From Oscillospiraceae bacterium (lineage in GTDB: Bacteria; Bacillota; Clostridia; Oscillospirales; Ruminococcaceae): DNA of 64,000 nt. The DNA is taken from NCBI GenBank assembly GCA_009776305.1, contig WRLY01000004.1:124001-188000 (forward strand), in the 5' to 3' direction. Shown here piece after piece: positions 1 through 14,272 of the stretch. The position numbers and the translations under genes are program-made. The stretch's first letter is position 1. Each line of letters begins with the position of its first letter. The notes beneath the pieces are model-generated. The model ran no database searches. It was not told the origin of the DNA and saw only the letters and a program-made list of their open reading frames with translations.

Positions 1-1
1 C

Positions 2-1360
2 ACAGCGGTAATAAGCGCGGTTGTATACCCTATAGAAGCAGGTTGGGTCTGGAATGAAAGCGGCTGGTTGGCGCAACTCGGTTATACTGACTTCGCTGGT
101 TCTTCGGCGATTCACATGGTCGGCGGTATTACGGCATTCATAGGGGCGGCTATACTCGGACCGAGGATTGGCAAGTACGCCATTGATAAAACAACGGGAA
201 AGAAAGTTTCAAAAGCGATTCCCGGTCACTCAATGACGCTCGGCGCGCTTGGCGTATTTATTCTTTGGTTTGGTTGGTACGGCTTCAACGGCGCAGCGGC
301 TGAAAATGTTTCTCAGCTCGGCTCCATATTTCTGACCACAACGTTAGCGGCGGGAATCGGCGCAACCTCCGCTATGATACTTACATGGCTCAAAAATGGC
401 AAACCTGACGTCTCCATGACCCTCAACGGCTCGCTTGCGGGGCTTGTGGGTATTACGGCGGGCTGTACCAATGTAGATGCGCTCGGTGCTTTGATAATAG
501 GTGCAGTTGCGGGTATGCTCGTTGTACTGGCGGTTGAGGTAATCGACATTAAACTTCACATTGACGACCCTATCGGCGCGGTTGCGGTACACGGTGTCTG
601 CGGCGTATGGGGAACATTAGCGGTCGGTTTATTCGCAAGACCTATCTCGGCGGGAGAAGACGTTATTTCCGATGTTACGGGGCTTTTTTACGGCGGCGGA
701 GCCGACCTCCTTGGGGTTCAGGCTTTGGGTGTTCTCTCAATAGCGTTATGGACAACTGTTACTATGCTTATTACTTTTACGCTCATCAAGAAAACAGTAG
801 GATTGCGCGCTTCTGCCGAGGACGAAATTATGGGTCTTGACTCAACTGAACACGGTCTGACAAGCAGCTATGCTGACTTTTTGCCGGTTGCTAACGCTGA
901 TTTGCAGGTATTGGGCGGCGAGTATCCAAAAAAGCCTTTTATGCCTGTTGCTCCTGCTGAGGCTATTACCGTTACCGATGTATCGACCGGCAAAAAGCTT
1001 ACTAAGGTTACGATTCTTACAAAGCAAAGCAAGTTCGCGGTACTGCGGGAAGCGTTTGACCAAATCGGCATTACAGGTATAACTGTTACAAATGTTATGG
1101 GTTACGGCGTACAACGCGGGCATACCCATACATACCGCGGAGTGCCGCTTGATTCGCCGCTTATGCCTAAAATTCAGATTGACGTAATCATCAGCAAGGT
1201 GCCTGTCGAAGTGTTGGTTGAAGCGGTTAAAAAGGCGCTGTATACAGGTAATATAGGCGACGGCAAAATATTCGTTTATGACGTGGAAAATGTTATTAAG
1301 GTTAGAACCGGCGAGGAAGGCTTTAACGCCTTGCAGGACGCCTATGCCGGAGATGAATAA
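2..1360 (+). CDS. amt: Ammonium transporter fused to a C-terminal PII (GlnB/GlnK) domain, 5' truncated by window edge
   Basis: The reading frame is open from the first base, so the N-terminus lies outside the window. The visible part begins in the Amt core (GWVWNESGWL, then LGYTDFAGS and VHGVCGVWGT), a multi-pass membrane channel for ammonium, and reaches the Amt cytoplasmic tail (EEIMGLDSTEHG pattern). After a linker, the last ~125 residues form a complete PII-like domain: KLTKVTILTKQSK at its start, a T-loop stretch with RGHTHTYRG, and the nucleotide-binding GNIGDGKIFV. PII proteins normally plug Amt channels according to nitrogen status; here sensor and channel are one polypeptide. It lies 24 bases upstream of glnN on the same strand, so the two are probably co-transcribed. 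Identification is secure; how gating works in the fusion is inference. Confidence 0.95.
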   Translation, partial: TAVISAVVYPIEAGWVWNESGWLAQLGYTDFAGSSAIHMVGGITAFIGAAILGPRIGKYAIDKTTGKKVSKAIPGHSMTLGALGVFILWFGWYGFNGAAAENVSQLGSIFLTTTLAAGIGATSAMILTWLKNGKPDVSMTLNGSLAGLVGITAGCTNVDALGALIIGAVAGMLVVLAVEVIDIKLHIDDPIGAVAVHGVCGVWGTLAVGLFARPISAGEDVISDVTGLFYGGGADLLGVQALGVLSIALWTTVTMLITFTLIKKTVGLRASAEDEIMGLDSTEHGLTSSYADFLPVANADLQVLGGEYPKKPFMPVAPAEAITVTDVSTGKKLTKVTILTKQSKFAVLREAFDQIGITGITVTNVMGYGVQRGHTHTYRGVPLDSPLMPKIQIDVIISKVPVEVLVEAVKKALYTGNIGDGKIFVYDVENVIKVRTGEEGFNALQDAYAGDE

Positions 1361-1384
1361 TTTATAAATTTTGGAGGAAAAGTA

Positions 1385-3475
1385 ATGAAAAACATATCTG
1401 ATTTATTCGGAAGTATGGTATTCAGCGATGCGGTTATGCAGGCGCGGCTACCCAAAGACGCTTATAAGGCGCTTAAAAAAACCATGTCGCAGGGTACGCA
1501 CTTGGAGCTTGACGTTGCCAACGTAGTGGCAAACGCTATGAAAAACTGGGCTGTGGAAAAGGGCGCGACCCACTTTACACACTGGTTTCAACCTATGACG
1601 GGGATTACGGCTGAGAAACATGACGCATTTATTTCCCCTGCCAAAGATGGAAATATTATTATGGAGTTTTCAGGGAAAGAGCTTGTTCGGGGTGAGCCTG
1701 ACGCGTCAAGTTTCCCGTCAGGCGGCTTACGCGCCACCTTTGAGGCAAGGGGCTATACTGTCTGGGATACTACCTCTTATGCCTTTATTAAGGACGGTAC
1801 GCTTTGTATTCCCACTGCTTTTTGTTCATACAGCGGAGAGGCTCTTGACAAAAAAACGCCGCTACTGCGTTCTATGGAGGCGATTGACAAGCAGGCGCAG
1901 CGTATATTGAAACTTTTCGGAAACCAAACGGTCAAGCGGGTGATTACAACCGTCGGTCCTGAGCAGGAATATTTTCTTATAGATAAAGAAATGTACTTAA
2001 AGCGTCCCGACTTGGTTTATACCGGCAGAACGCTGTTCGGTTCACGCCCGCCGAAAGGTCAGGAGATGGAAGACCACTATTTCGGGACTTTAAAACCTCG
2101 GGTTTCGGCGTTTATGCGGGAGCTGGAGGAGGAGCTTTGGCGGCTCGGCGTTTATGCCAAAACCAAGCATAATGAAGTCGCCCCGGGACAGCATGAACTT
2201 GCACCGATTTTCACAACCACCAATATTGCCACCGACCACAATCAGCTTACCATGGAACTGATGAAAAGCATTGCAAACAAGCACGGACTTGCCTGTTTGC
2301 TTCACGAAAAGCCTTTTGCGGGGGTCAACGGCAACGGTAAGCATAACAACTGGTCGATTTCAACCGATACAGGAGTAAACCTGCTTGAACCGGGCGAAAC
2401 CCCTTGCGAAAACGCGCAGTTTTTACTCTTCTTGGTTGCAGTAATTAAAGCGGCGGACGTTTATCAGGATTTGATTCGGCTTTCGGCGGCAAGCGCAGGC
2501 AACGACCACAGGCTCGGCGCGAACGAAGCCCCGCCCGCAATTATTTCCATGTTCCTCGGCGACGAGCTGACGGGAATCCTTGAGGCGCTTGAAAACGGAA
2601 AGGCTTATCATAACAAAGAAAAGCATGAAATGGAAATAGGCGTTACCGTACTGCCGCATTTCCCAAAAGACATGACTGACCGTAACAGAACCTCGCCGTT
2701 CGCCTTTACGGGAAACAAGTTTGAGTTTCGTATGCTGGGCTCTACATTTTCTATTGCAGGACCAAACGTGGTACTTAATACGGCGGTGGCGGAAATCCTC
2801 TGTCAATTTGCCGATGAGTTAGAAAAATCCGATAACTTTACGGGCGATTTGGCGGCGCTTGTCCGAAAGACTTTCAGCGAGCATAAGCGAATCGTCTTCA
2901 ACGGCAACAACTATTCCGACGAGTGGGTAACAGAGGCTGAAAATCGCGGCTTGTCAAACTTGAAAACCACAGTAGACGCGTTGCCTGAATTTATTTCAAA
3001 GAAAAGCGCGGCGTTATTTACAAAACACCACGTATTTTCGGAGGCTGAAATTCACTCGCGCTATGAAATTTTAATGGAAAGTTATTGCAAAACACTGCAC
3101 ATAGAGGCGCTGACTATGGTGGATATGGTCAAAAGGGAAATTATCCCCTCATTAATTACCTATCAGAGCGAACTTTTGAAGTTGCCTGAACAAAAAAAGT
3201 CATGTGGCGGCTTAGATTCTACGTTGGAGGAATATTTACTGGGACGAATCGCCAAGCTGTCCGCCTGTCTGCTCAAAAAGCTTAAAATTCTCGACAGCGT
3301 GATTTTAGAATCCAAGGAAAAGAATGAAATTTTATCTCTCGCCGTCTTTTATCGCGACAAGGTATTTCCCGCCATGTCGGAACTGCGTCTGATTGTGGAC
3401 GAACTGGAAACTGTTGTAGCTAAAAAATACTGGGCTTTACCGTCTTACGCCGAAATGCTTTACAGCGTAATTTAA
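1385..3475 (+). CDS. glnN: Glutamine synthetase type III
   Basis: The product has 696 residues, the usual size for the GSIII family and much longer than GSI. It makes glutamine from glutamate, ammonia and ATP in the cytoplasm. Family motifs are visible in order: [12 protein letters not shown] near 200, [14 protein letters not shown] near 262, [10 protein letters not shown] near 318 and [12 protein letters not shown] near 372, with a helical C-terminal extension typical of GSIII. A strong ribosome site (TTGGAGG) sits just upstream of the ATG. It follows the Amt-PII fusion directly, making an ammonium uptake and assimilation unit. A 10-bp perfect hairpin follows the stop codon. Confidence 0.97.
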
Positions 3476-3480
3476 CAGGG

Positions 3481-3505
3481 AGGGGCGGCAGAAATTGCCG
3501 CCCCT
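3481..3505 (+). terminator. Hairpin after glnN
   Basis: Perfect 10-bp inverted repeat (AGGGGCGGCA / TGCCGCCCCT) with a 5-base loop, six bases after the glnN stop. The following tract is AAAATTT rather than a clean T run, so termination may be weak. Confidence 0.6.
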
Positions 3506-3510
3506 AAAAT

Positions 3511-3540
3511 TTGACAAAATATTCCCGTTTATGCTATAAT
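3511..3540 (+). promoter_or_regulatory. Promoter of small hydrophobic peptide locus 1
   Basis: Consensus TTGACA at 3511-3516 and TATAAT at 3535-3540 with an 18-base spacer. Transcription would start near 3547 and run through a structured leader of about 140 bases before the peptide start codon at 3688. Confidence 0.75.
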
Positions 3541-3687
3541 ATAATCGCAGACGCGGGACGCGTTTAACTTATTCACTTATAGACGTAAAAATAGGCGGCG
3601 ACCTCTAAACCTTTTACACCGACACGAAGTCAGGGAAAGGAGGTTGTGGACTCTTGTCGGAATCTCGGGACAGGAGGACTTTGCTGA

Positions 3688-3756
3688 ATGGAAGTTGCTT
3701 TAATAATTGCGCTTGTTTTCATATACGCGATTATAACAGAACTGAAAAAGAAGTAA
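3688..3756 (+). CDS. 22-residue hydrophobic peptide, candidate type I toxin (locus 1)
   Basis: A 22-codon reading frame starting ME, followed by about 15 hydrophobic residues (VALIIALVFIYAII) able to span a membrane, then TELKKK. A clear GGAGG lies 10 bases before the ATG. It has its own consensus promoter, a long folded leader, and a stop codon that forms the left edge of an intrinsic terminator hairpin. An opposing consensus promoter at 3846-3874 would make an antisense RNA overlapping the 3' end. The leader holds a second strong ribosome site (AAAGGAGG at 3636-3643) before an overlapping TTG-started frame of 47 codons, recalling the mok/hok arrangement. A second 22-residue peptide of the same pattern lies at 6103-6171. 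Membrane insertion is evident; toxicity is inferred from architecture. Confidence 0.6.
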   Translation: MEVALIIALVFIYAIITELKKK

Positions 3757-3839
3757 CCCGCCTTGCAGCCACAAAGCGGGTTATAACTGTTTTTTAAAAC
3801 ACTATTAACCGAGGTCGCCGTCTGTTTTGTCCCTCGTCT
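3750..3839 (-). ncRNA. Candidate antisense RNA of locus 1
   Basis: From the minus-strand promoter at 3846-3874 transcription would start near 3839 and end at the shared hairpin near 3750, giving a short RNA of roughly 90 bases complementary to the 3' end of the peptide mRNA. Its 5' half repeats, in the same sense, elements of the peptide mRNA leader: GCAGACGnGGGAC and then CGGCGACCTC. The segment CGACCTC can also pair with GAGGTTG at 3640-3646, which overlaps the upstream ribosome site of the peptide mRNA. Confidence 0.5.
3754..3795. terminator. Shared terminator of locus 1, overlapping the peptide stop codon
   Basis: Inverted repeat TAACCCGC / GCGGGTTA (3754-3761 and 3776-3783) followed on the plus strand by TTTTTT at 3790-3795. 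On the minus strand the hairpin is followed by CTTCTTTTT, so it can stop both converging transcripts. Confidence 0.7.
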
Positions 3840-3845
3840 GCATTT

Positions 3846-3874
3846 ATTATAACATAAAAACATTAACAAGTCAA
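3846..3874 (-). promoter_or_regulatory. Antisense promoter of locus 1
   Basis: On the minus strand TTGACT (3869-3874), a 17-base spacer and TATAAT (3846-3851). No open reading frame of any length follows before the shared terminator. Confidence 0.7.
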
Positions 3875-3930
3875 TATTTATTTAAAAAATATCGTTCTTA
3901 AATAAAAGGACAATAACGCTAAAGCAACAG

Positions 3931-3959
3931 AAAACCCCCGCCTTTTGAGCGGGGGTTTT
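3931..3959 (-). terminator. Terminator downstream of flagellin
   Basis: Perfect 11-bp arms AAAACCCCCGC / GCGGGGGTTTT with a 7-base loop. On the minus strand, which carries the flagellin gene, the hairpin ends in TTTT. Confidence 0.8.
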
Positions 3960-4009
3960 GAAACGGCTGACGGCTTTTGCGCCGTCGCGCCGCCGCCGGA
4001 GAAATACTT

Positions 4010-5692
4010 TTATCCGAGTAATTGAAGAATAGCTTGTGGTGCTTGGTTTGCTTGCGCTAACATTGCCTGAGCAGCTTGCTGCAGGATGCTGAACTTGGTG
4101 TAGTTTATCATCTCTGTAGCCATGTCGGTGTCGCGAATCTGCGATTCCGCCGCCGTTAGGTTTTCCTGGGTTACTGTCAGGTTGTTTACTGTGGATTCGA
4201 GACGGTTTTGCAGTGCACCGAGCTTTGCTCTTTGTGCCGAAACCATGCTCAAAGCTTTGGTTGTGCTTTCGAGAGCCTTGTTAGCCCCTTCTACGGTAGA
4301 CAGGTCTGCGTTGGCTACGCCGAGCGCGGCTGCGCCCATGTCGTCTACGTTGAGGGTTACTCTCTGGTCAACTACGCCGTTTGCACCGATTTGGAAAGTC
4401 AGACCCTTACCTGCAGAGCCGACAGCGTCCTTACCTACGCCCTGACCGTTATCCATGGCAAGACCTACGCCGGTACTTTGATAATCGGCAAAAGAATCCT
4501 GTTTTTCGGTGGTGGTATTGGCGAAGAAAGTGACAAAGCCTTCCGGACCGTTCGAAGTAGTACTGTTGCTGAGTTGAACCTCATAGTCAAGACCGGCTTG
4601 ACGCATGATGTTTTCAATATCCTGCTGGGTGTATTCCGTACCGGTAGCCAAGTGGAGTACGAAATTACCATCTTTGACGTTGGGGTCGTTTTCGGTTTTA
4701 AGCACCTCTACCCATTCTTTACCCGGCGATACCGTGGTTGCGATTGCGAACTCACGGGCGTCAACGCCGTAGTTGTTGGAAACGAATCTTATGGTGTCGG
4801 CGTGACCCTCGGTGGTAGCTCCCACAAGGAAGTTGGAAAGGTTGCCTTGGTCGGCGGAGGTGTTGGCTGAAGATGCGGCTCTTACGCCCTGCGCGGTTGG
4901 TTCAATAGTCGCTGCCTGACCTACGAAAACGCCGCTTCCGAGTTGAACCGTAACCTGCGGGAGCGAACCTGCCTGATTACCCTCGCCTTCCCACTTAGCC
5001 CCTCTGATGAGGTCGTCGATTTGCGCCTGGGTGTAGGTAACGCCCTGTGACAGGTTTAAGGTAATATGGTTACCTGCCGCGTTCCAGGAAGCGTTTTCAC
5101 CGCCTGCGCCCGACGCGCTTGTGGTGAACTGTACCGTAACGGCGTTGATGCTCGAGGTGACGACTGTACCTGCGAGTGCACTCACACCACCGGCTTCGGT
5201 ACCGGATGCGTCAATACGTACACCGAAACGGGGACCGAATTCACCGCGTGCGCTGGATGAGCCGCCGAGAGAACCGTCGAGCAACTTGAGTGTGTTAAAC
5301 TCGGTAGAGGTGGAAATCCTGTCGATTTCACTCTTGAGTGCGTCAACTTCGTACTGAATCATCTCACGGTCTTCGTCGGTGTATGTGCCGTTTGGTGATT
5401 GTACCGAGAGCTCTCTCATTTTCTGGAGAATTGCCGTGGTTTCGTTTAGACCGCCTTCTGCAGTCTGGATAAGGCTGATACCGTCGTTGGCGTTTTTAAT
5501 CGCCTGACCCAAGCCTCTGATTTGGCTTCTCATTTTTTCAGAGATTGCCAGTCCTGCCGCGTTGTCGCCGGCTCTGTTAATCGCGAAACCGGAAGATAAC
5601 TTTTCGGTTGCTTTCTTAACACCGACAACGTTGGCATTGAGCTTGTTGTTCGCGTTAATCGCGTTCAGGTTGTTTTGAACAACTAATCCCAT
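4010..5692 (-). CDS. hag: Flagellin
   Basis: The 560-residue product has the conserved flagellin N-terminal D0/D1 region (residues 1-150, with LSSGFAINRAGDNAAGLAIS and NDGISLIQTAEGGLNE) and C-terminal D1/D0 region (about 470-560, with GALQNRLESTVNNL and ending in ANQAPQAILQLLG). The middle, about 150-470, is a variable surface-exposed domain. It polymerises into the flagellar filament after export through the flagellar type III apparatus. A sigma-28-type promoter and a hairpin with GGA in its loop lie upstream; the ribosome site AAGGAGG is strong. It is monocistronic. No other flagellar genes lie in the window. Confidence 0.97.
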   Translation of the reverse strand: MGLVVQNNLNAINANNKLNANVVGVKKATEKLSSGFAINRAGDNAAGLAISEKMRSQIRGLGQAIKNANDGISLIQTAEGGLNETTAILQKMRELSVQSPNGTYTDEDREMIQYEVDALKSEIDRISTSTEFNTLKLLDGSLGGSSSARGEFGPRFGVRIDASGTEAGGVSALAGTVVTSSINAVTVQFTTSASGAGGENASWNAAGNHITLNLSQGVTYTQAQIDDLIRGAKWEGEGNQAGSLPQVTVQLGSGVFVGQAATIEPTAQGVRAASSANTSADQGNLSNFLVGATTEGHADTIRFVSNNYGVDAREFAIATTVSPGKEWVEVLKTENDPNVKDGNFVLHLATGTEYTQQDIENIMRQAGLDYEVQLSNSTTSNGPEGFVTFFANTTTEKQDSFADYQSTGVGLAMDNGQGVGKDAVGSAGKGLTFQIGANGVVDQRVTLNVDDMGAAALGVANADLSTVEGANKALESTTKALSMVSAQRAKLGALQNRLESTVNNLTVTQENLTAAESQIRDTDMATEMINYTKFSILQQAAQAMLAQANQAPQAILQLLG

Positions 5693-5715
5693 TTTGATTT
5701 CCTCCTTGAAATCCG

Positions 5716-5737
5716 CACCGGAATTCCTTTTCCGGTG
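5716..5737 (-). promoter_or_regulatory. Flagellin leader hairpin, candidate CsrA site
   Basis: In the flagellin mRNA, CACCGGAA and TTCCGGTG form a perfect 8-bp stem with loop AAGGAA just upstream of the ribosome site CAAGGAGGAA. A GGA in a hairpin loop plus a second GGA in the Shine-Dalgarno is the layout of the Bacillus hag leader bound by CsrA. CsrA and FliW genes are not in the window, so the regulator is inferred. Confidence 0.6.
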
Positions 5738-5870
5738 AACTTTTTTACTCGGGAAGTATTTCCCTGTTTTTATGTTAAACCGCTTTTGCTTGGTGCGTCG
5801 GACATTCCGAATACTTTAATAATGGTGAAAATGTTCCGTGCAACTTACTCCTGCGGCGTTTACATACATA

Positions 5871-5898
5871 ATATCGGCATGAGTTCGGGAAAACTTTA
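5871..5898 (-). promoter_or_regulatory. Sigma-28 (SigD/FliA) promoter of flagellin
   Basis: On the minus strand TAAAGTTT is followed after 12 bases by GCCGATAT, closely matching the flagellar sigma factor consensus. It implies a leader of about 170 bases before the flagellin start. Confidence 0.85.
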
Positions 5899-5989
5899 GC
5901 ATTTTTTAGGGATAAATATTAAAATTTTGTTAATTTTCTGTGAGGTTTATATAAATAAGTGTTTTATAGGCTAAATTTTAAGATAAGAC

Positions 5990-6018
5990 TTGACAAATTC
6001 GGGGGTTTGTTATATAAT
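5990..6018 (+). promoter_or_regulatory. Antisense promoter of locus 2
   Basis: TTGACA at 5990-5995, a 17-base spacer and TATAAT at 6013-6018. Only a short RNA ending in the hairpin at 6072-6110 can follow; no reading frame is present. Confidence 0.75.
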
Positions 6019-6024
6019 AGAAAG

Positions 6025-6116
6025 CGATAAAGGCGATACCTACAGACGGTTAGCTTTGATTTAAGTTATTGAAAAATAACCGCACACTTGCTACAGGGGC
6101 GGTTATTTTTTCATTT
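6025..6116 (+). ncRNA. Candidate antisense RNA of locus 2
   Basis: Predicted from the consensus promoter at 5990-6018 to the terminator at 6072-6110, about 90 bases. Its 3' half is complementary to the end of the small peptide mRNA from the other strand. Its 5' half contains AAAGGCGAT and ACGGTTAGC, which recur in the same sense in the leader of that mRNA (AAAGGCAAT, GCGGTTAGC), as at locus 1. Confidence 0.5.
6072..6110. terminator. Shared bidirectional terminator of locus 2
   Basis: Perfect 12-bp arms AAAAATAACCGC / GCGGTTATTTTT with a 15-base loop, A-rich on one side and T-rich on the other, so it works in both directions. The peptide stop codon (6103-6105) lies inside the right arm. Confidence 0.8.
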
Positions 6117-6171
6117 TGTCGATTATCACGGCTACTGCGACCAGTATCAAAAATATGAATATCAACTCCAC
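6103..6171 (-). CDS. 22-residue hydrophobic peptide, candidate type I toxin (locus 2)
   Basis: A GTG-started frame of 22 codons preceded by GGAGG at 7 bases spacing. The product starts ME, has a hydrophobic stretch (LIFIFLILVAVAVII) and ends DKMKK. It matches the locus 1 peptide in length, in the Glu at position 2, an acidic residue at 18 and Lys at 21-22. The ribosome site can be hidden in a local hairpin (ACCTC against GAGGT). It has its own promoter at 6238-6266 and a stop codon within a bidirectional terminator, and faces a convergent antisense promoter. Function as a membrane-acting toxin is inferred from this architecture; a leader-controlled small membrane peptide with another role is possible. 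Confidence 0.6.
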   Translation of the reverse strand: MELIFIFLILVAVAVIIDKMKK

Positions 6172-6237
6172 GGCGTCACCTCCTCTCAGAGGTTTACGCT
6201 AACCGCCTGTCTTTTCGGCATTGCCTTTGTAATACTT

Positions 6238-6266
6238 ATTTTAGCATAAATGTAAGCTTTTGTCAA
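6238..6266 (-). promoter_or_regulatory. Promoter of small hydrophobic peptide locus 2
   Basis: On the minus strand TTGACA (6261-6266), a 17-base spacer and TAAAAT (6238-6243). Start near 6231 gives a leader of about 60 bases. The -35 abuts the hairpin that ends the neighbouring operon. Confidence 0.7.
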
Positions 6267-6302
6267 TTAGGGGGACGCTCAAAAAGTAGCGTCCCCCTAA
6301 TT
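6265..6302. terminator. Terminator hairpin at the end of the P-ATPase/DUF368/AI-2E operon
   Basis: A 15-bp inverted repeat (AATTAGGGGGACGCT / AGCGTCCCCCTAATT) overlaps the stop codon at 6302. The T-rich flank is on the plus strand, so strength toward the minus strand is uncertain. Confidence 0.65.
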
Positions 6303-7648
6303 TATTTTTTCTTAAAAAATCCGCTTTTCTTACTCTTTTTCTCTTTCTTTACTTTCTCCTCACTGAAGAAAATAATCTCGCCCGATTGGTCTTCTATATG
6401 CGAAACGTTACGGTAAAAATTGCTGTCGGCGGGCAACTCTTTTTTATCAAGCTTGGCGGCAAGCCGCCCTTTGGTCAGAGCGTAAATGAACGAGAACAGC
6501 GGCACGCCTATTACAAGCCCCACAAACCCGAAAAGCCTGTTGCCCACTATAATTGCGAAAAGCACCCAAAAGCTCGACAGCCCTGTGGTGTCGCCGAGGA
6601 TTTTCGGACCTAATACATTCCCGTCAAACTGTTGCAGGGCAATTACTATTATTATGAAAATCAAGCACTGCATTGGGTCAACCACAAGGATTAAAAGCGC
6701 ACAGGGAATCGCGCCTATGATTGGTCCGAAAAAAGGAATGAAATTGGTTATGCCGATTATTACGCTGATTAGAGCCACATAGGGCAGTCTGAAAATCGTC
6801 ATGATTACAAAGCAGAGCGCGCCTATAATTACAGAATCTATGATTTTCCCCGTGATAAAGCCGCCGAATTTCTTGTGAATTTCCCTCATATTTCTTATAA
6901 TAACATTAGCCTTTTCAAGCGAGAGCAGGCTGTAAAGCGCTTTTTTACCCTGCGCCGCGAATAATTCTTTCCCGTGGAGCAAATAAATGCAGAACACCAA
7001 GCCTATCAGAATATTTAAAAGTGCGCTGAGTGTAGCCCAAATCCCGCCTGTTACGCTTAACACAATTTCGTTGATTTGCGGCAGAATGTTTTCTTCAAAC
7101 CATCTTGAGGTGATTGCGGGTGCGTTTTGCAAAAAGTCGTAGACCCCGCTTTGCAGTTCGGGATAACTGTCGAGAAAGCCTAAATCCCACCCTTGAATAT
7201 TACGAACATAAGCGTTGGTGTTATCAATGACGGTTACGACAGAAGACAGGGTTTGCGGCAGAATCGCGCTTACAAGCCCTACGAGAAACGCCAGCGCCGC
7301 AAGGATTGTCGTAACCAAGCCGAGCGCACGAGCGCTTTTTTTTATGAATAATTCAGTATTTTTGGCTTCTTCGGGGGTTCTGGTTTTGCCGCGGGCGAGC
7401 CGCTTTTTTTCAAGTCTTGTGAAAAGGGTTCTGAAGCATCTTTTCTCAAAGAAGTTCATCACAGGCGCAAGCAGATAGGCGAATATAAAGCCGTAAATCA
7501 CAGGGGTGAATAACCCGATTACATTCCCGACAGCCTCTAAAACGCCGCTCATGTTGGTGAGGAGGGTATAAAATAACATTCCCCCCACAATAACGCAAAT
7601 CGCCGCCACGCTCCAATAAAGATATTTTTTGTCCCAACGATAATTCAT
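6302..7648 (-). CDS. AI-2E family transporter (YtvI/PerM-like membrane protein)
   Basis: The 448-residue protein begins with a membrane segment (LYWSVAAICVIVGGMLF) and has further pairs of hydrophobic segments, with the family region FGGFITGKIIDSVIIGALCF, then FIPFFGPIIGAIPCALL and QQFDGNVLGPKILGDTTGLS near residues 250-370, matching PF01594. The C-terminus is a lysine-rich cytoplasmic tail. Members were named for AI-2 export in one species, but many appear to be antiporters or have unknown substrates, so transport of AI-2 should not be assumed. It is the last gene of a three-gene operon, 19 bases after the DUF368 gene. Confidence 0.88.
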   Translation of the reverse strand: MNYRWDKKYLYWSVAAICVIVGGMLFYTLLTNMSGVLEAVGNVIGLFTPVIYGFIFAYLLAPVMNFFEKRCFRTLFTRLEKKRLARGKTRTPEEAKNTELFIKKSARALGLVTTILAALAFLVGLVSAILPQTLSSVVTVIDNTNAYVRNIQGWDLGFLDSYPELQSGVYDFLQNAPAITSRWFEENILPQINEIVLSVTGGIWATLSALLNILIGLVFCIYLLHGKELFAAQGKKALYSLLSLEKANVIIRNMREIHKKFGGFITGKIIDSVIIGALCFVIMTIFRLPYVALISVIIGITNFIPFFGPIIGAIPCALLILVVDPMQCLIFIIIVIALQQFDGNVLGPKILGDTTGLSSFWVLFAIIVGNRLFGFVGLVIGVPLFSFIYALTKGRLAAKLDKKELPADSNFYRNVSHIEDQSGEIIFFSEEKVKKEKKSKKSGFFKKK

Positions 7649-7667
7649 GTAGCAGTACCTCTAAATC

Positions 7668-8519
7668 TTATTCGTTCGTTGTCTTTTCCCTGCCCGCAAA
7701 GAAAGAAAACACCGCCCCCGCAATAAATGCCGCTGTTCCTATAAGGAGCGTCAAGTCAAACCGGACGCCCGGCGGGAAGATTGCAAACAGCGAGCCTATG
7801 ACAAGCCCTGTAATTATGCTGTAGGCTGTAGTGTAAAACCGCCCGAGCAACCACTTTATAAACCTTGCCCCGATTACTACGCCGACTATAATGCCAAGTC
7901 CCGAAGGAACAAGTATGGAAAGGTCAAGTTCGGTTATAGCGTTTATGATTACATAATAAACCCCGAACAGCATAAGCATAAACGACCCCGACATTCCGGG
8001 GATTATCATAACCACCGCCGCTATAAATCCGCAGAAAAAAAGCTTAACGTAAAAGATGAAACCCATTTGAGCCATAAAGCTTACGGTTTCAACCGCGCTT
8101 TTTTCGGCGATTCCCAAAACAGCCACGATTGCCAGCGCAATCACCGCAAAGATAATATGATAGAATTTTACTTTATTATTAACATTGCCGCCGCCCGAAA
8201 ACATTTTCCTGAATAATAGAGGCAGGCTTCCCGCTACCAACCCAAGGAAAAACAAAAATGTAGGTATCGGGAAGTTTTCCAAAAGCCCCGTCACCGCAAA
8301 AGAAAACCCTATAATTCCTCCTGCCGCGCCGATGGCAAAAAGCATTAAAAACGCAAAATGTTTCTTTATGTGCTTTATATCAAGTGCTAACGCCCCGCAA
8401 ACAATATCAAAACAACCGAAAACAACCATCATAGTCCCACCCGAAACACCGGGAATAACATTTGATATTCCGAAAATCATTCCGTAAACAACCGATTTTA
8501 ATTGTTTCAATAATTTCAT
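7668..8519 (-). CDS. DUF368 family membrane protein, PopT-like undecaprenyl-phosphate translocase
   Basis: A 283-residue polytopic protein with the two inverted family motifs: NVIPGVSGGTMM near residues 20-31 and IPGMSGSFMLML near 173-184. DUF368 (PF04018) proteins have been shown to recycle undecaprenyl phosphate across the membrane for cell envelope synthesis; that role is taken from the family. The start codon overlaps the stop of the upstream ATPase gene (ATGA), so the two are translationally coupled. The neighbouring atypical ATPase suggests a joint envelope role, which is inference. Confidence 0.88.
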   Translation of the reverse strand: MKLLKQLKSVVYGMIFGISNVIPGVSGGTMMVVFGCFDIVCGALALDIKHIKKHFAFLMLFAIGAAGGIIGFSFAVTGLLENFPIPTFLFFLGLVAGSLPLLFRKMFSGGGNVNNKVKFYHIIFAVIALAIVAVLGIAEKSAVETVSFMAQMGFIFYVKLFFCGFIAAVVMIIPGMSGSFMLMLFGVYYVIINAITELDLSILVPSGLGIIVGVVIGARFIKWLLGRFYTTAYSIITGLVIGSLFAIFPPGVRFDLTLLIGTAAFIAGAVFSFFAGREKTTNE

Positions 8520-11086
8520 ATCTCGTCCCTGCCGTCCTTATTATAATTGCCGCCGCTGAATTTGGGTATTTCAACCCACGCCTGACTGATTAATCCGAAA
8601 ACGAGCGACGGAATAAACCGCAAAGGGCTAATCCCCGCCAGACCGAACGCCGAATTGATTCCGGGTATGTAGGTAATAATAATTACAAGGAGCAGGGTTA
8701 TTCCGCTCAAAAGCAATGCCGAATTGCTTTTTTCTAAGAGTAGCTTGTGCGCGGGTATGCTTCCCGAAAGGTTTACGCAAACCGCCCCAATCAATCCGCC
8801 CGTCATAGCCGCCAAAAAGCAGGAGCGTAGAACCTCGGGGCTTTCCCCTTTAAAAACAAGCTGAAAAATTAGAACAACTAATGAAACGCATAACCCTTGG
8901 GTTACAGCCCTTATTAAAAATCTTTTATCTAAAGCCCGTCGCCCCACAAACCCCGAAGCCGACATAAAGCTTTTTATATCCGACCTGTTGCCGAAAAACG
9001 CCAGTAATAATATCGGCAAAATTAAAACCGCGGGCAACGACATCAGAATGGGCGACAATGCGGTTTTACTGTCAGAACCGCCCCCAAAAAGGCAAAACAG
9101 TGCAAACGTGAGCATTACTGTAAAGGTGCAGATAATTATTCCTGCCGACTGTTTAATATTATAATGTATTTGACGGGTTTCCTTAATGGCGTCCACTACC
9201 GAATTAAAGTCGTCGTCTGCCAAAACCAATCCGCAGACCTCTTTCGCCGCGCCCGAGGTTTCCTGCGGCAACGCCACGCCTACATTGGCGCTTTCAAGTG
9301 CTTCAACGTCGGTCGCGCCGATTCCCGTCACGGCTACGATTTCGCCTTCGTCTTTTAATAATTCTATAATATGAGATTTTTGGTCGGGGGTTATGCGGGC
9401 AAAAATATTAACGCCTTCTATTTCGGGTTTTTCGTAATTATCGAGAGCGTCGCGCAAATAATCCCCCGTTACCGCCTTTGCGTCGGATAGCCCTATTTTC
9501 TTGCCAATCACAAGTGCCGCGTCTGTGCTGTCGCCGGTGGTCATTATAACCTTTACTCCGGCTTTGTAACAACTTCTGACGGCGGCGGGGGCGCTGTCCC
9601 GTGTACGATTCTCAAACGCCGCAAGTCCCACAAAGGTATAATCGGCGTCATAAATACTTTCGGGTATAATCCCGTTTTCTATTCTTGCATAAGCCACCGC
9701 CACTACCCTGTGTCCCTGCTCGGAATATTTTTGCTGTTTTTGCTGAATCGCGAAAAGATTATCGGGCGGCAGAACACATTTGGTTAAAATACTTTCGGGA
9801 GAACCCTTGACACAAAGCAAAAGAGAGCCGTTTATATTCCACAGATTTCCGCCGATTTTGGTCTCTTCCGAAAAAGGATAGCGGCAAATAAGCTCGTTTT
9901 CATGCAGACTTTTTACGTCCACACCTTTAAACGCCGCACCGAGTATAATCGCCCTGTCCAAAGACGATGAATCCGAGGGGTCGCCTTGTACATTTCTTTC
10001 GCAGGACAAAACCGAAATCTTCGACATGGTGTCCTCGTCGGTGGTATATTCGTCTACGGGAGAGGTGTGATTCTTGGTTATAACTCCTGTTTTGTCAACA
10101 CACACCGCAGTTACTGCCGAAAGGGTTTCAATAGAGTTTAAATCTTTTACCACGCAATTCTTTTTAAGCAACGAGAACGCCCCGAAAAGATAGTGCGCCC
10201 TAACAACGCCCGAACATTCTGCCGGAATAAGGCAAAGCGCCAACGAAAAGGCGGGCAGAAGAGAATTCAACGCTAATTCGGCAAATGTGTTCTTTTCTCT
10301 TGTAAAAAGCGTAATCATGAAAAACATTATAAAAAGCGCGCTTGACGATGCAAAAAATACAGGGCTTATTTTGCCTGCCGCCTTTTCAATTCCGGTGACA
10401 TAGGCTTTTTTTTCATAGACTTCGCCGAGTTCGCGGCATTTTTTTGTATCAAGACCGGTTGCCGTAACCCTTGCCACCGCGCTTCCCGATAAAATCCGCG
10501 TACCTTTATATATACAGGTCTGCTTTATTTCGTTTTTTCCGTCCGCCCCCGCTCTTTTGATGGCAGGGGTTCTGTCGTCGGTGAACATGCTTTCGTCCGC
10601 CGAAAGGTCGCGGGCTTCAAGCAGATGGGCGTCAGCGGGGACGCTTTCGCCTTCCTGCAATATAATTATATCGTCGGGGACTATGTATTCACGGCGTAAG
10701 AGGGTGATCGCGCCGTCACGCAAAACGCGGAATCTGACGCCGGAGATGCGCTTTAATTCATAAAATCCGTCGCGGCATTTTAAACCCTTAAAAACTTCAA
10801 CGCCGGAATAAATAAACGCCAGTATCAGCATGACGAACCCTTGATTTATTTGCTTTGCAAGCAACATTACAAGCGCCGCCGTAACCATGACAAGAAACCT
10901 GAACGAAAATACGGCGCGGAAAACCTTAAAGTCCCCGTCGGTCTCCAAATGCCGCGAATTCCCGTTATAGCCGTACATTACAAGCCTATCGGCTGCCTGG
11001 TCTGAAGACAGTCCGCGGTATTCGTCTATTTTATCTGTAATACAAGTAAAACGTTCCATTATTTCTTTTGCACCTGTTTTTTTCAT
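8516..11086 (-). CDS. P-type ATPase-like protein with altered catalytic and ion-binding motifs
   Basis: The 856-residue protein has the P2-type ATPase layout: N-terminal actuator region, phosphorylation loop, nucleotide-binding region (KGSPES), hinge, and a C-terminal block of membrane segments. The phosphorylated Asp is kept (DKTGVIT near 330, normally DKTGTLT). Other signatures are changed: TGES is TDDR (near 168), the membrane-4 PEGL region is IPAECSG (near 290), the GDGxNDAPAL hinge is GIGATDVEAL (near 589), and the usual membrane-6 NLxxD ion site is not recognisable. A working cation pump therefore looks doubtful; it may be a regulator or carry an unusual substrate. No frameshift is seen. 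It heads the operon with DUF368 and AI-2E family genes. Confidence 0.85.
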   Translation of the reverse strand: MKKTGAKEIMERFTCITDKIDEYRGLSSDQAADRLVMYGYNGNSRHLETDGDFKVFRAVFSFRFLVMVTAALVMLLAKQINQGFVMLILAFIYSGVEVFKGLKCRDGFYELKRISGVRFRVLRDGAITLLRREYIVPDDIIILQEGESVPADAHLLEARDLSADESMFTDDRTPAIKRAGADGKNEIKQTCIYKGTRILSGSAVARVTATGLDTKKCRELGEVYEKKAYVTGIEKAAGKISPVFFASSSALFIMFFMITLFTREKNTFAELALNSLLPAFSLALCLIPAECSGVVRAHYLFGAFSLLKKNCVVKDLNSIETLSAVTAVCVDKTGVITKNHTSPVDEYTTDEDTMSKISVLSCERNVQGDPSDSSSLDRAIILGAAFKGVDVKSLHENELICRYPFSEETKIGGNLWNINGSLLLCVKGSPESILTKCVLPPDNLFAIQQKQQKYSEQGHRVVAVAYARIENGIIPESIYDADYTFVGLAAFENRTRDSAPAAVRSCYKAGVKVIMTTGDSTDAALVIGKKIGLSDAKAVTGDYLRDALDNYEKPEIEGVNIFARITPDQKSHIIELLKDEGEIVAVTGIGATDVEALESANVGVALPQETSGAAKEVCGLVLADDDFNSVVDAIKETRQIHYNIKQSAGIIICTFTVMLTFALFCLFGGGSDSKTALSPILMSLPAVLILPILLLAFFGNRSDIKSFMSASGFVGRRALDKRFLIRAVTQGLCVSLVVLIFQLVFKGESPEVLRSCFLAAMTGGLIGAVCVNLSGSIPAHKLLLEKSNSALLLSGITLLLVIIITYIPGINSAFGLAGISPLRFIPSLVFGLISQAWVEIPKFSGGNYNKDGRDEI

Positions 11087-11190
11087 ATATTTTCCTTTAT
11101 CAGACTATCACATATAGGCGAAAATGTCAAGTGGGCGCAAGGACTGCCGCCCGAAATTTTGCCGTTAATAAAAAATTTTCTTTTTATCTG

Positions 11191-11219
11191 TTGAAATATC
11201 GGACAAAATAATGTATAGT
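11191..11219 (+). promoter_or_regulatory. Promoter of the purF cluster
   Basis: TTGAAA, a 17-base spacer and TATAGT. A 9-bp hairpin follows at 11240-11264 (TTTTATTCG / CGGATAAAA). I see neither the purine riboswitch core nor a T run after the hairpin, so its role is unclear. Confidence 0.6.
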
Positions 11220-11303
11220 AAAATGTAGGGCATAATCCCTTTTATTCGTTTTTAACGGATAAAAGTATAAAGCCGATGTGCGACAGAAAGGTTGCGGTTA
11301 AAA

Positions 11304-12728
11304 TTGTTTGACAAACTACGCGAAGAATGTGGTGTGTTCGGAATCTTCACAAAAACCGTTTCGGACGTTACCATGTATGCCTATACGGCGCTATACGCGC
11401 TGCAGCACAGGGGTCAGGAGAGCTGCGGTATAGCGGTAAACGACAGAGGCGTAATAAATTATAAACGCGGAATGGGGTTAGTGAACGACGTTTTCGACAA
11501 GGAAGCTCTCGAAAGCCTTAACCACGGCAGAATAGCCGTGGGTCATGTGCGACATTCAATATCGGGACTTAACAACCATTACAGCACCCTCCCGCTTGTT
11601 GTTCGCCATATAAAAGGTCCTATGGCGGTTTCTTACAACGGCAGTTTAATCAATTCGCAGGAATTGAGGGAAAGCTACGAACTTAAAGGCGCGATTTTCC
11701 ATTCTCTCAGCGACGCGGAGGTAATCGCCTATGCCGTAACTGAAGCGAGAATACGTTGCGGCTCAATAGAAGCCTCCCTTGAAGAAGCTATGAAAAAAAT
11801 TAAGGGGGCGTATTCCCTTGTTATCATGTCGCCGCAAAAGCTGATTGCCGCCCGCGACCCAAACGGTATACGTCCGCTTTGCCTCGGCGAATTGCCGAAC
11901 GGCGAGGGCTACATCGCCGTAAGTGAAAGTTGTGCTTTGAACGCCGTGGGAGCTACTTTTCTGCGGGACGTACTCCCGGGTGAAATCGTGGTTATTTCAT
12001 CCGATGGAATTCAAAGTATTCAAACCCATTGCGCCAATAAGGGCAGTCTTTGCGTATTCGAGTATATTTACTTTGCCCGCTCCGACAGCCGTATTGAGGG
12101 CGTTTGGGTGCATGAGGCGCGTATGCGCGCAGGGGAATTCTTAGCGCAGGAACACCCCGTTGACGCAGATGTGGTTATAGGCGTACCCGACAGCGCCATA
12201 GACGCGGCGCTCGGCTATTCCAAGCAGTCGGGAATCCCCTACGGGCTCGGGCTTGTAAAGAACCGTTATGTAGGACGCACTTTTATTCAACCTACTCAGG
12301 AAATGCGGGAAACCAGCATAAAAATAAAACTCAGCGCGGTAGAATCTGTCGTAAGCGGAAAGCGAGTGGTCGTCATCGACGACAGCATAGTCAGAGGAAC
12401 AACCACCCGCATAATTATAAAAATGCTCCGTGAATCGGGCGCAAAGGAAGTTCATGTAAGGCTTTCTTCCCCGCCGTTTTGCAACCCCTGCTTTTTCGGA
12501 ACGGACATAGACAGCCGCGCCTCCCTTATTGCAAACAGCAAAACCCTTGACGAGATAAGGGATAACATCGGCGCAGACTCTTTGGGGTATTTAAGCATAG
12601 AAAATGTTGAAAAGGTCGCCTCGGGCGCTAACTGCGGTTTCTGCTCAGGCTGTTTTTCCGGCAGGTACCCGATTGATATTCCGGAAGAAATTCCGAAAGA
12701 TAAATTTGATTCGCGTTTATCACAATAA
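11304..12728 (+). CDS. purF: Amidophosphoribosyltransferase
   Basis: First committed step of purine synthesis, making phosphoribosylamine from PRPP and glutamine. I chose the TTG at 11304 because the AAAGG site upstream fits it better than the in-frame TTG at 11292. The start puts EEC at residues 7-9, so Cys9 would become the N-terminal nucleophile of the glutaminase domain (CGVFGIF) after propeptide removal. The PRPP-binding loop VVVIDDSIVRGTT lies near 355. Cysteines near 250, 392 and in GANCGFCSGCF near 444 fit the [4Fe-4S] cluster of Bacillus-type enzymes. It is the first gene of the purine cluster. Confidence 0.96.
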   Translation: MFDKLREECGVFGIFTKTVSDVTMYAYTALYALQHRGQESCGIAVNDRGVINYKRGMGLVNDVFDKEALESLNHGRIAVGHVRHSISGLNNHYSTLPLVVRHIKGPMAVSYNGSLINSQELRESYELKGAIFHSLSDAEVIAYAVTEARIRCGSIEASLEEAMKKIKGAYSLVIMSPQKLIAARDPNGIRPLCLGELPNGEGYIAVSESCALNAVGATFLRDVLPGEIVVISSDGIQSIQTHCANKGSLCVFEYIYFARSDSRIEGVWVHEARMRAGEFLAQEHPVDADVVIGVPDSAIDAALGYSKQSGIPYGLGLVKNRYVGRTFIQPTQEMRETSIKIKLSAVESVVSGKRVVVIDDSIVRGTTTRIIIKMLRESGAKEVHVRLSSPPFCNPCFFGTDIDSRASLIANSKTLDEIRDNIGADSLGYLSIENVEKVASGANCGFCSGCFSGRYPIDIPEEIPKDKFDSRLSQ

Positions 12729-12746
12729 AAAAAGAGGAAATAACTC

Positions 12747-13787
12747 ATGAAAAACAGTCATTCCGAAAGTTATAAATCAGCGGGCGTAGACGTTACTGCC
12801 GGCTACGAAAGCGTTAAGCTTATGAAATCTGCGGTGGAGCGGACATATACCAAAGGGGTGTTAGGCGATTTTGGAAGCTTCGGTGGTATGTTTATGCCTG
12901 ACCTCGGCGGCATAAAAGAGCCTGTCTTTGTTTCGGGCACAGACGGCGTCGGAACTAAGATTAAGCTTGCCATGCTCCTTGACAGGCACGACACCATAGG
13001 TATTGATGCGGTGGCAATGTGCGCCAACGATATAATATGTTGCGGTGCGAAACCTCTTTATTTCCTTGACTATATCGCCTGCGGTAAAAATATTCCGGGG
13101 AAAACTGCGTCGATTGTAAGCGGTGTGGCGGAAGGTTGCGTCAGAGCCGGTTGCGCCCTGATTGGCGGTGAAACGGCAGAACATCCGGGAATTATGAAAG
13201 CGGACGAATACGACTTAGCGGGCTTTTGCACCGGAGTGATTGATAAAAGTAAAATCATCGACATAAGCGGCGTAAAAGAGGGCGACGTAATAATTGGTCT
13301 TGCTTCGAGCGGGGTTCATTCCAACGGGTTTTCGCTTGTACGTAAGGTTTTCGGAATTAAAAACAGCAGAGAAGTGCTTGACGAATTTATACCTGATGAA
13401 GACAAAACTTTGGGGGAAATTCTTTTAACCCCTACCGAAATTTATGTAAAGCCTGTGTTAAAGCTTATCTCCTCCGTAAAGGTCAAAGGGATTTCCCATA
13501 TTACGGGCGGCGGCTTTTTCGAGAACATTCCGCGCTGTCTTCCTTACGGATTAGGCGCGAAAATTAATAAGAGCATGTTTGAAATTCCTTTTATTTTCCG
13601 CTATATTCAGGAAAAAGGGGGAATACCTGAGCGCGATATGTTCAATACTTTTAACATGGGAATCGGCATGACCTGTATAGTCAGCGCCAAAAAAGCCGAT
13701 ACTGCAGTAAAAACGCTGGAAAAGGCGGGGATTAGCGCCTTTTGCATAGGCGAGGTCGTAAGCGGCGAGGGAGTTGTTTTAATATAA
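12747..13787 (+). CDS. purM: Phosphoribosylformylglycinamidine cyclo-ligase (AIR synthetase)
   Basis: A 346-residue enzyme closing the imidazole ring of AIR with ATP. Seen motifs are GVDVTAGYESVKLMK at the N-terminus, GTDGVGTKIKLA near 65, GGETAEHPG near 140, GLASSGVHSNGFSLVRKV near 185, and ITGGGFFENIPRCLP near 255, all standard for PurM and in the right order. It lies 18 bases after purF with an AGAGGAAA ribosome site. Confidence 0.96.
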   Translation: MKNSHSESYKSAGVDVTAGYESVKLMKSAVERTYTKGVLGDFGSFGGMFMPDLGGIKEPVFVSGTDGVGTKIKLAMLLDRHDTIGIDAVAMCANDIICCGAKPLYFLDYIACGKNIPGKTASIVSGVAEGCVRAGCALIGGETAEHPGIMKADEYDLAGFCTGVIDKSKIIDISGVKEGDVIIGLASSGVHSNGFSLVRKVFGIKNSREVLDEFIPDEDKTLGEILLTPTEIYVKPVLKLISSVKVKGISHITGGGFFENIPRCLPYGLGAKINKSMFEIPFIFRYIQEKGGIPERDMFNTFNMGIGMTCIVSAKKADTAVKTLEKAGISAFCIGEVVSGEGVVLI

Positions 13788-13789
13788 CT

Positions 13790-14272
13790 ATGAAAAAATC
13801 TTCAAAAAAGAAAATATTGTTATCAGTCATCATTATTATCAGTCTGTTTATTCTTTTAAACGTGAGCTGGTTTATCTGGCGAGGCGTTAAATACGGCGGT
13901 TATGTGGTCAACATGGGGAAAACCGACAGCTCGAGTTTTATGAATCCCCGCTATTATTCGGAAGACGCGGACAGATACGGTTACTATGTCAGGTATCCGG
14001 GCTATCTGTCGTTCAAGGGCAGTTTAACTGTTATGGAGCCCAGCCGTGACGGCAGTTCTTTTGAGAACACCTTTATAATAAGGACATTTTTCGGAGACGG
14101 ATATGAATTTGTCTTGATTTTATATGAAGACGGCGAAGCGTATGAGCTTACGCTAAGGTCAGCGTCGCCTGACGATGAAATGACAGAGTTGCTTGACAAA
14201 AATCGGGGCGTGATTAGCGAGCTAGAGGAGAGAGCGTTTAGAAAATGGGACATTCGGACAACAAAAACATAG
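13790..14272 (+). CDS. Small membrane-anchored protein of unknown function
   Basis: A 160-residue product starting MKKSSKKK and followed by one strong hydrophobic segment (ILLSVIIIISLFILLNVSWF), suggesting an N-terminal membrane anchor with a small extracytoplasmic domain. I chose the ATG at 13790, two bases after the purM stop, over a longer frame beginning inside purM, because it gives the classic basic-hydrophobic start. No family is recognised. The domain is rich in Tyr, Asp and Ser and appears to form alternating strands. It overlaps purN by 28 bases, so it is expressed with the purine genes without an obvious metabolic reason. Confidence 0.7.
   Translation: MKKSSKKKILLSVIIIISLFILLNVSWFIWRGVKYGGYVVNMGKTDSSSFMNPRYYSEDADRYGYYVRYPGYLSFKGSLTVMEPSRDGSSFENTFIIRTFFGDGYEFVLILYEDGEAYELTLRSASPDDEMTELLDKNRGVISELEERAFRKWDIRTTKT

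Follow-up and report, generated by a model that had tools for sequence, protein, structure and literature searches.

The DNA analysed here, a window of 64,000 nucleotides from an Oscillospiraceae bacterium, holds at positions 5990-6266 a small segment in which two promoters face each other across a frame of only 22 codons. This segment, referred to as locus 2, comes after a gene which we take to encode a permease (6302-7648, minus strand) and lies upstream of a presumed flagellin gene (4010-5692, minus strand), both named by recognition of their sequences. It raises the question of whether such an arrangement constitutes a chromosomal type I toxin-antitoxin module and the second copy of a design also seen at a neighbouring site, locus 1, as was originally predicted. 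The detection of type I systems is difficult because their peptides are tiny and diverge quickly. In all likelihood, locus 2 is a compact type I module of the TxpA/RatA-BsrH/Hol_Tox type, with the peptide as the candidate toxin. The features on which this reading is built are the following.

6238-6266, minus strand: promoter of the peptide mRNA, TTGACA-17-TAAAAT, score 11/12 in the promoter scan, with TG before the -10 element
6194-6231, minus strand: 5' leader of the peptide mRNA, AAAGGCAATGCC..ACAGGCGGTTAGC, with an inferred transcription start; near-identical to the antisense leader
6178-6193, minus strand: hairpin ACCTC-TGAGA-GGAGGT, which folds and holds the Shine-Dalgarno (SD) sequence
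6103-6171, minus strand: 22-codon ORF with GTG start, MELIFIFLILVAVAVIIDKMKK; predicted membrane peptide, candidate toxin
6072-6110, both strands: bidirectional terminator, an inverted repeat with a perfect 12-bp stem and a 15-nt loop
6025-6112, plus strand: antisense RNA of about 88 nt, a 5' hairpin (AAGGC/ACC..GGT/GCTTT) followed by the terminator; the RNA of model R1
5990-6018, plus strand: convergent promoter of the antisense RNA, TTGACA-17-TATAAT, score 12/12
3511-3874, plus strand: locus 1, a divergent cassette, recognised by its promoter pair, its DNA relatives and model R2
3688-3756, plus strand: ORF of locus 1, MEVALIIALVFIYAIITELKKK
3841-3747, minus strand: antisense RNA of locus 1, approximate

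The elements named in the original prediction are present in the sequence. The GTG-started frame of 22 codons (6171-6103) is preceded by GGAGG, its own promoter, of the sigma-70 type, was found at 6238-6266 (11/12), and the convergent antisense promoter at 5990-6018 (12/12). The arms of the perfect 12-bp bidirectional terminator, AAAAATAACCGC (6072-6083) and GCGGTTATTTTT (6099-6110), are accompanied on either side by A/T tracts, and the stop codon of the ORF (6105-6103) lies within this inverted repeat. From the terminator positions, an overlap of about 45 nt (6068-6112) between mRNA and antisense RNA is predicted, barely exceeding the terminator itself. A scan of 7 kb returned 21 promoter-like sites against 9.2 expected, and 21 terminator-like sites against 9-10 expected; the four top promoter-like sites are the two promoter pairs of loci 1 and 2. 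A counterpart of the peptide promoter of locus 2 is present at the same position in relatives. Upstream of the flagellin gene there is presumably a sigma-28-like promoter (5876-5905, minus strand; TAAA - N15 - GCCGATAT), read by eye, and since it is located between this gene and the cassette, the flagellin is probably independent of the cassette promoters. By eye, no prophage genes were recognised among the ORFs of window positions 1-14000. A phage origin of the window copy was dropped, as a search of 50,697 phage records gave no match to it.

That the cassette represents a real gene family was borne out by the test named beforehand, as further copies were found in its own genome and in relatives. 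A DNA search of 41 genomes recovered most of the locus-2 element again in its own genome (E 8e-10 and 5e-9) and relatives of it in congeners (E 4e-56, 2e-52, 8e-36 and 2e-32). The 16 places that were read, the window included, have a common layout, which is partial or cut at some of them: a promoter, the leader, the SD hairpin, a short hydrophobic ORF, a terminator holding the stop codon, the inverted leader and the convergent promoter. The relatives of locus 2 served as seeds for R1, a covariance model of the antisense RNA with 88 positions and 19 pairs; its seed alignment was reduced from 18 sequences (A1) to 16 (A2), locus 1 being omitted from A2 after it had misaligned in A1. Locus 2 itself scores 85.7 bits against R1, a match by construction because the locus is part of the seed; it is the members outside the seed that confirm the family. 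The E-values of R1 and of the second model R2 described below are rough owing to a short calibration, and many of the searched assemblies are drafts or MAGs.

R1 gave 22 matches at E<=1 in the own genome (1.54 Mb, 71% complete); seven of them are below 1e-5, and six of these seven strong matches have an antisense promoter together with a hydrophobic ORF. The seventh (L051, G000:C1:398654-398737) has a promoter score of 6-8 of 12, lacks a hydrophobic ORF and is probably a decayed copy; this site is matched by R1 as well as R2 and adjoins a complete cassette. Within the genus, 41 of 60 genomes have matches at E<=0.01, with up to 18 matches per genome. At E<=1e-4, matches occur in 42/147 genomes of the order and in 30/398 of the phylum, the two samples overlapping; each of these counts includes the own genome. 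A pattern scan of named genomes yielded at least 115 stretches. Among the 80 matches listed are Lachnospiraceae, Oscillospiraceae, Butyrivibrio, Oribacterium, Roseburia inulinivorans, Sporomusa and Desulfosporosinus, many MAGs designated 'Clostridia' or 'Clostridiales', MAGs named for goat, buffalo and roe-deer gut samples, and a few entries with distant names (Synergistaceae, Sphingobacterium). A pattern scan of viral contigs found nine stretches with the antisense-RNA pattern (L317-L325), two of which, L317 and L324, carry two successive R1 matches each; phage-borne relatives of the cassette may thus exist. One genome harbours five tandem cassettes at a spacing of about 340 bp (L107, G014:C1:290880-292900), encoding four near-identical peptides of 32 residues and a related one of 37. 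The terminator loops of this array differ, as if loops diversify and thereby keep the pairs apart. A flanking gene in common with the window copy was found at only one of 17 loci tested, where a related cassette (L033, G023:C15:34000-36700), whose peptide has 25 residues, adjoins a flagellin gene with 84% DNA identity across 460 bases of the flank. As far as titles and abstracts could be searched, with thin coverage of subscription papers, we found no description of the R1 RNA family or of the common leader discussed below.

The family members allow independent checks of the proposed anatomy. The 253 rows of two alignments, after removal of 11 duplicates and 16 shadows on the opposite strand, gave a set of 226 R1 matches. 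The antisense promoter lies outside model R1; it was sought in the 46 bases upstream and the first four of each match, two of the 226 being omitted for too little upstream DNA. At a score of at least 11/12 it is present in 150 of 224 family members and in none of 224 shuffled sequences. By set, the counts are 106/120 in the genus and 44/106 in the wider set; beyond the genus, the antisense RNA may have another 5' end or another type of promoter. On the opposite strand, an SD-preceded ORF of 15-66 codons ends near the 3' end of the antisense RNA in 173/226 cases, and in 163/226 this ORF, picked by score among the candidates, is hydrophobic; the stop codon occupies the same offset in 139 of these 163 cassettes. 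The remaining 63 matches are devoid of a convincing hydrophobic ORF under the criteria used, and some of them are solitary, decayed or mis-called. The RNA stems covary: in alignment A3, changes on both sides were observed in 15 of the 19 pairs, the terminator stem included. Of the alignment cells, 87.7% are able to pair, as compared to 79.0% after shuffling and 32-51% after sliding, and none of 500 shuffles matched the observed value on any of five measures. A3 comprises 138 rows (130 distinct) before cleaning, is fitted to the model and includes the seed loci and a few shadow matches.

The peptides that face this one type of RNA fall into a number of classes, among them the ME..KK peptides of 21-23 residues and others beginning with MTWLEFL.., MYITLSDL.., MEILD.., MSWNEFF.., MTFTYEAF.. 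or MLTISDLIAVLAL... The 22-residue peptide is under purifying selection, a conclusion supported by ten peptides of the ME class: pN/pS amounts to 0.33 among the 18 closer pairs and to 0.39 when all pairs, which are near saturation, are taken; for codons 3-17, a part of the frame that the antisense RNA does not cover, it is 0.42. Lysine is the final residue in 147/163 cassettes. The Lys-Lys end can be traced to the overlap, because AAA AAA TAA is at the same time the template of the U-tract of the antisense terminator. In 15/163 cassettes the frame runs past this template (stop offset 20-29). There, all 15 keep A-rich DNA with ACCG(C/T)C behind it, 12 of them having a run of at least four A, but this DNA is translated otherwise, e.g. 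as ..EEINNRPRLR.

This bears on the resemblance between the two peptides of the window. The original prediction stressed that they share their exact length, Glu2, an acidic residue 18 and Lys21-22, and this agreement exists; as evidence for kinship it is weak, because the overlapping terminator dictates the KK end, so that neither this end nor the equal length is an independent indication. Since the U-tract template dictates the KK-stop codons, we dropped the peptide likeness as a proof that the loci are homologous. The relation of the two loci is better judged by their RNAs. Model R1 scores locus 1 at 12.8 bits (E 1.2), and DNA relatives of locus 1 were found in three congeners (E 5e-10 to 2e-6), two of which, read by eye, encode ME peptides of 21 and 23 residues in a matching layout. 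A second model, R2, seeded exclusively with five locus-1-type RNAs, matches 23/60 genomes of the genus; neither the R1 nor the R2 seed held a member of the other class. Among the non-seed R2 matches listed at E<=8e-4, at least 22 of 27 fall on R1 matches of the same strand in a manual comparison. R2 thus re-finds locus-2-type loci from a disjoint seed, which argues that loci 1 and 2 belong to one RNA superfamily and sustains the description of locus 2 as a second copy of the same design. Locus 1 is a divergent class within this RNA family. Locus 1 has a longer 5'UTR, terminator arms TAACCCGC and a leader, GCAGACG[C/A]GGGAC, that occurs in both of its RNAs.

A further property of the cassettes is that both RNAs start with an identical, not complementary, cassette-specific sequence. 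The test comprised 93 of the 226 family members, those with a hydrophobic ORF and both promoters at >=10/12; 69 of them belong to the genus and 24 to the wider set. The mRNA leader aligns with the antisense leader of its own cassette at a mean score of 27.5, compared to 17.4 for those of other cassettes, a difference attained in 0/5000 permutations; the same result (0/5000) was obtained with one cassette per peptide prefix (n=67). Controls with the reverse complement and with shuffled sequences scored 13.1 and 12.8, respectively, for which reason a direct-repeat complementarity as in par was rejected. At locus 2 the leader alignment has a score of 28, reached by 1/5000 shuffles, and at locus 1 the likeness is reached by 11/5000. 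The differences between leaders consist of inserts and alternative arms and are not those of clean repeats; in the antisense RNA the leader folds as a hairpin. With regard to pairing, for which the test sets comprised 67 and 65 cassettes, one per five-letter peptide prefix, duplex energies indicate that the antisense leader prefers the 5'UTR (2/2000) and the 3' end (1/2000) of its own mRNA to those of other cassettes. This preference is small, about 1 kcal/mol, and none was seen for the own ORF (1579/2000) or the own terminator (1925/2000). A hok-like lock between 5' and 3' end was also considered, as leader GGCGGTTA and terminator arm TAACCGCC match, and was rejected since the sense leader shows no pairing preference for its own 3' end (1352/5000).

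From the computed anatomy, family, covariation, promoters, leader identity and coding selection, we infer how the cassette may be transcribed, act and be silenced. One strong promoter would give rise to a short mRNA encoding a membrane-spanning peptide of 22 residues, the putative toxin, and because its SD sequence is held in a hairpin this mRNA would initially be poorly translated. In the 93 cassettes mentioned above, the predicted pairing probability of the SD sequence averages 0.83 and exceeds 0.7 in 86/93, compared to a mean of 0.68 and 45/93 when the upstream UTR is shuffled. The second strong promoter would direct the synthesis of a convergent, structured RNA of about 88 nt, the presumptive antitoxin, and the common bidirectional terminator would provide complementary 3' ends of about 45 nt. 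Pairing would probably begin at the terminator loops, of which the antisense one bears a U-turn (YUNR) motif. Among the 182 loops that could be parsed from the 226 family members, this motif occurs in 175 on the antisense side, where 123 are expected from shuffles, and in 122 on the mRNA side, a weaker enrichment over the 96 expected. From there, pairing might spread to the 5' leader and lead to decay by RNase III and/or to a tighter closure of the ribosome site. The leader is an imperfect palindrome, and identity would therefore bring some complementarity, possibly allowing a second contact as well as an identity tag among paralogous cassettes. Tentatively, and with more doubt than the rest of this scheme, it might be speculated that an antitoxin identifies the toxin mRNA of its own cassette in part through sequence identity, as opposed to plain complementarity, the leader acting as a name tag through arm exchange between similar hairpins or by imitating the mRNA leader. 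If so, it would prevent cross-reaction among paralogous cassettes, including those in tandem arrays, and the antitoxin gene would go back to an inverted duplication of the promoter and leader of the toxin gene.

The window locus lies outside the RatA and Hol_Tox families as currently modelled. Its peptide matches no family in Pfam or NCBIfam, the peptides of loci 1 and 2 gave no match, Hol_Tox included, and in Rfam locus 2 reaches no gathering score, with RatA absent among the matches up to E 10; membership in any Pfam, NCBIfam or Rfam family was rejected accordingly, nothing scoring above the cut-off. A connection to both families is provided by relatives. Seven R1-linked peptides (L265, L208, L203, L239, L235, L227 and L259) pass the Pfam threshold for Hol_Tox. 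In three sets of peptides linked to R1 or R2, passing members number 0/10 (congeners, two of them sub-threshold), 3/10 and 4/10, the last set having mostly been picked for Hol_Tox-like starts. The antisense promoter of the cassettes that pass scores 12/12 in L203, L235, L227 and L259, and 5, 6 and 8 of 12 in L208, L265 and L239, respectively. Within the genus, the cut-off of Hol_Tox, the one Pfam model of relevance here, is passed in 1/40 genomes, compared to 41/60 with an R1 RNA.

The window element also matches the 3' end of a 'putative holin-like toxin' gene on two Enterococcus plasmids and the same, unannotated stretch on a third. The match covers query positions 148-222, which correspond to the end of the ORF and the terminator and not to the leader. 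R1 matches the Enterococcus locus in all three plasmids at 35.1-38.9 bits, with E 9e-6 at 35.1 bits. One of these loci, L326, is recognised by Rfam as RatA (63.6 bits; cut-off 49) and also as rli28; its RatA match begins about 39 nt upstream of the R1 match, which points to a longer antisense RNA at the Enterococcus locus. In the annotation of all three (L326-L328) the RatA-type antisense RNA is missing, and GACGGTGGC was read by eye in both leaders. In phage SPBc2, R1 scores at most 6.8 bits over bsrG/SR4, a locus that is unannotated and was placed by eye (L349, about 12620-12860), and its best score in the 1.6-kb stretch, 15 bits, lies away from bsrG.

The reading of locus 2 as a type I module, which draws on conserved convergent promoters, a covarying antisense RNA, purifying selection on the peptide and the bridge to RatA and Hol_Tox, largely holds when other explanations are weighed. 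It is unlikely that the peptide instead acts as a small regulator that tunes a membrane protein or the proton motive force, with the antisense RNA setting its dose. Such a function would be in keeping with a chromosomal cassette that reaches up to 18 R1 matches per genome and resides in a region without recognised prophage genes, with the copy beside a flagellin gene in another genome of the genus (one of 17 loci), and with the variety of peptide classes opposite a single RNA design; antisense control combined with SD occlusion, tandem arrays and the links to Hol_Tox and RatA are, however, typical of type I toxins. Very improbable is a MITE-like mobile element, the leaders and promoters at its ends being terminal inverted repeats kept alike by gene conversion and the ORF a passenger: inverted copies of promoter and leader at both ends, the dispersed multi-copy family and the near-complete lack of common flanking genes would fit, but the ORF is under purifying selection, the RNA stems covary, and inserts and alternative arms set the leaders apart from clean repeats. 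Chance, that is, a random frame amid promoter-like sites in AT-rich intergenic DNA, would draw on the abundance of promoter- and terminator-like sites in the 7 kb scanned and can practically be dismissed, refuted as it is by the independent promoters and the covariation in relatives, and opposed by the very existence of these relatives, the leader identity and the second model R2.

In these cassettes the antisense RNA is more conserved than the peptide, one covariance model recovering cassettes with many unlike peptides, and the R1 approach thus offers a way to catalogue type I-like genes. Multi-copy chromosomal cassettes of this type are common in some Clostridia. A recurrent Lys-Lys end of a peptide can be the by-product of an overlapping terminator. 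The cassettes also raise the question of why a toxin mRNA and its antitoxin should begin with one cassette-specific sequence. New points in our analysis are this cassette-specific leader in both RNAs, an overlap that barely extends beyond the terminator and a KK end that follows from the overlap.

In comparison with known systems, locus 2 resembles TxpA/RatA and the BsrH-like/RatA-rli28 pairs (RF01776, RF01492) in that convergent RNAs meet at the 3' end of the toxin gene and the hydrophobic peptide ends in Lys. It differs in its antisense RNA of about 88 nt, the overlap of about 45 nt, the peptide of 22 residues and the one leader in both RNAs. For type I systems of B. subtilis, PMC6562991 gives a 3' overlap of 100-140 bp; the predicted overlap of locus 2 is far from this value of the TxpA/RatA and BsrG/SR4 type. 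For Listeria plasmids, PMC9484302 reports that rli28 and ratA rank with the genes of highest expression. In bsrG/SR4, as set out in PMC6562991, the SD sequence resides in a short stem that is lengthened by the antitoxin, and the interaction starts from a loop-loop contact with a YUNR motif. The stem-held SD and the YUNR loop are features shared by our cassettes, in contrast to the long overlap and the four-stem antitoxin described there. Similarly, par/Fst of pAD1 is depicted in PMC7472228 as having convergent promoters, a common bidirectional terminator as contact site with a U-turn, an SD sequence in a 5' stem-loop and a second contact near the start codon. Locus 2 likewise has a terminator common to convergent RNAs, an SD stem and a U-turn loop. 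In par, going by that paper, complementarity is provided by the direct repeats DRa and DRb, whereas here the leaders are inverted copies and therefore identical in the RNAs, and the PXXXG motif given there for Fst is missing from MELIFIFLILVAVAVIIDKMKK, which has neither Pro nor Gly. With Hol_Tox (PF16935) the likeness is that seven peptides opposite R1-type RNAs pass the Pfam cut-off, and the difference that the window peptide and ten congener peptides fail it. The CD2517.1/RCd8-type systems of Clostridioides difficile, compared by their description in PMC6563280, are convergent overlapping pairs with a small membrane peptide and a Lys-rich end, and differ by peptides of 34-59 aa and a long complementary region. 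Locus 2 thus combines a small hydrophobic peptide with a charged C-terminus and a predicted overlapping antisense RNA gene, as is characteristic of type I toxin-antitoxin systems, and by its anatomy would represent a new compact class of the TxpA/RatA-Hol_Tox sort.
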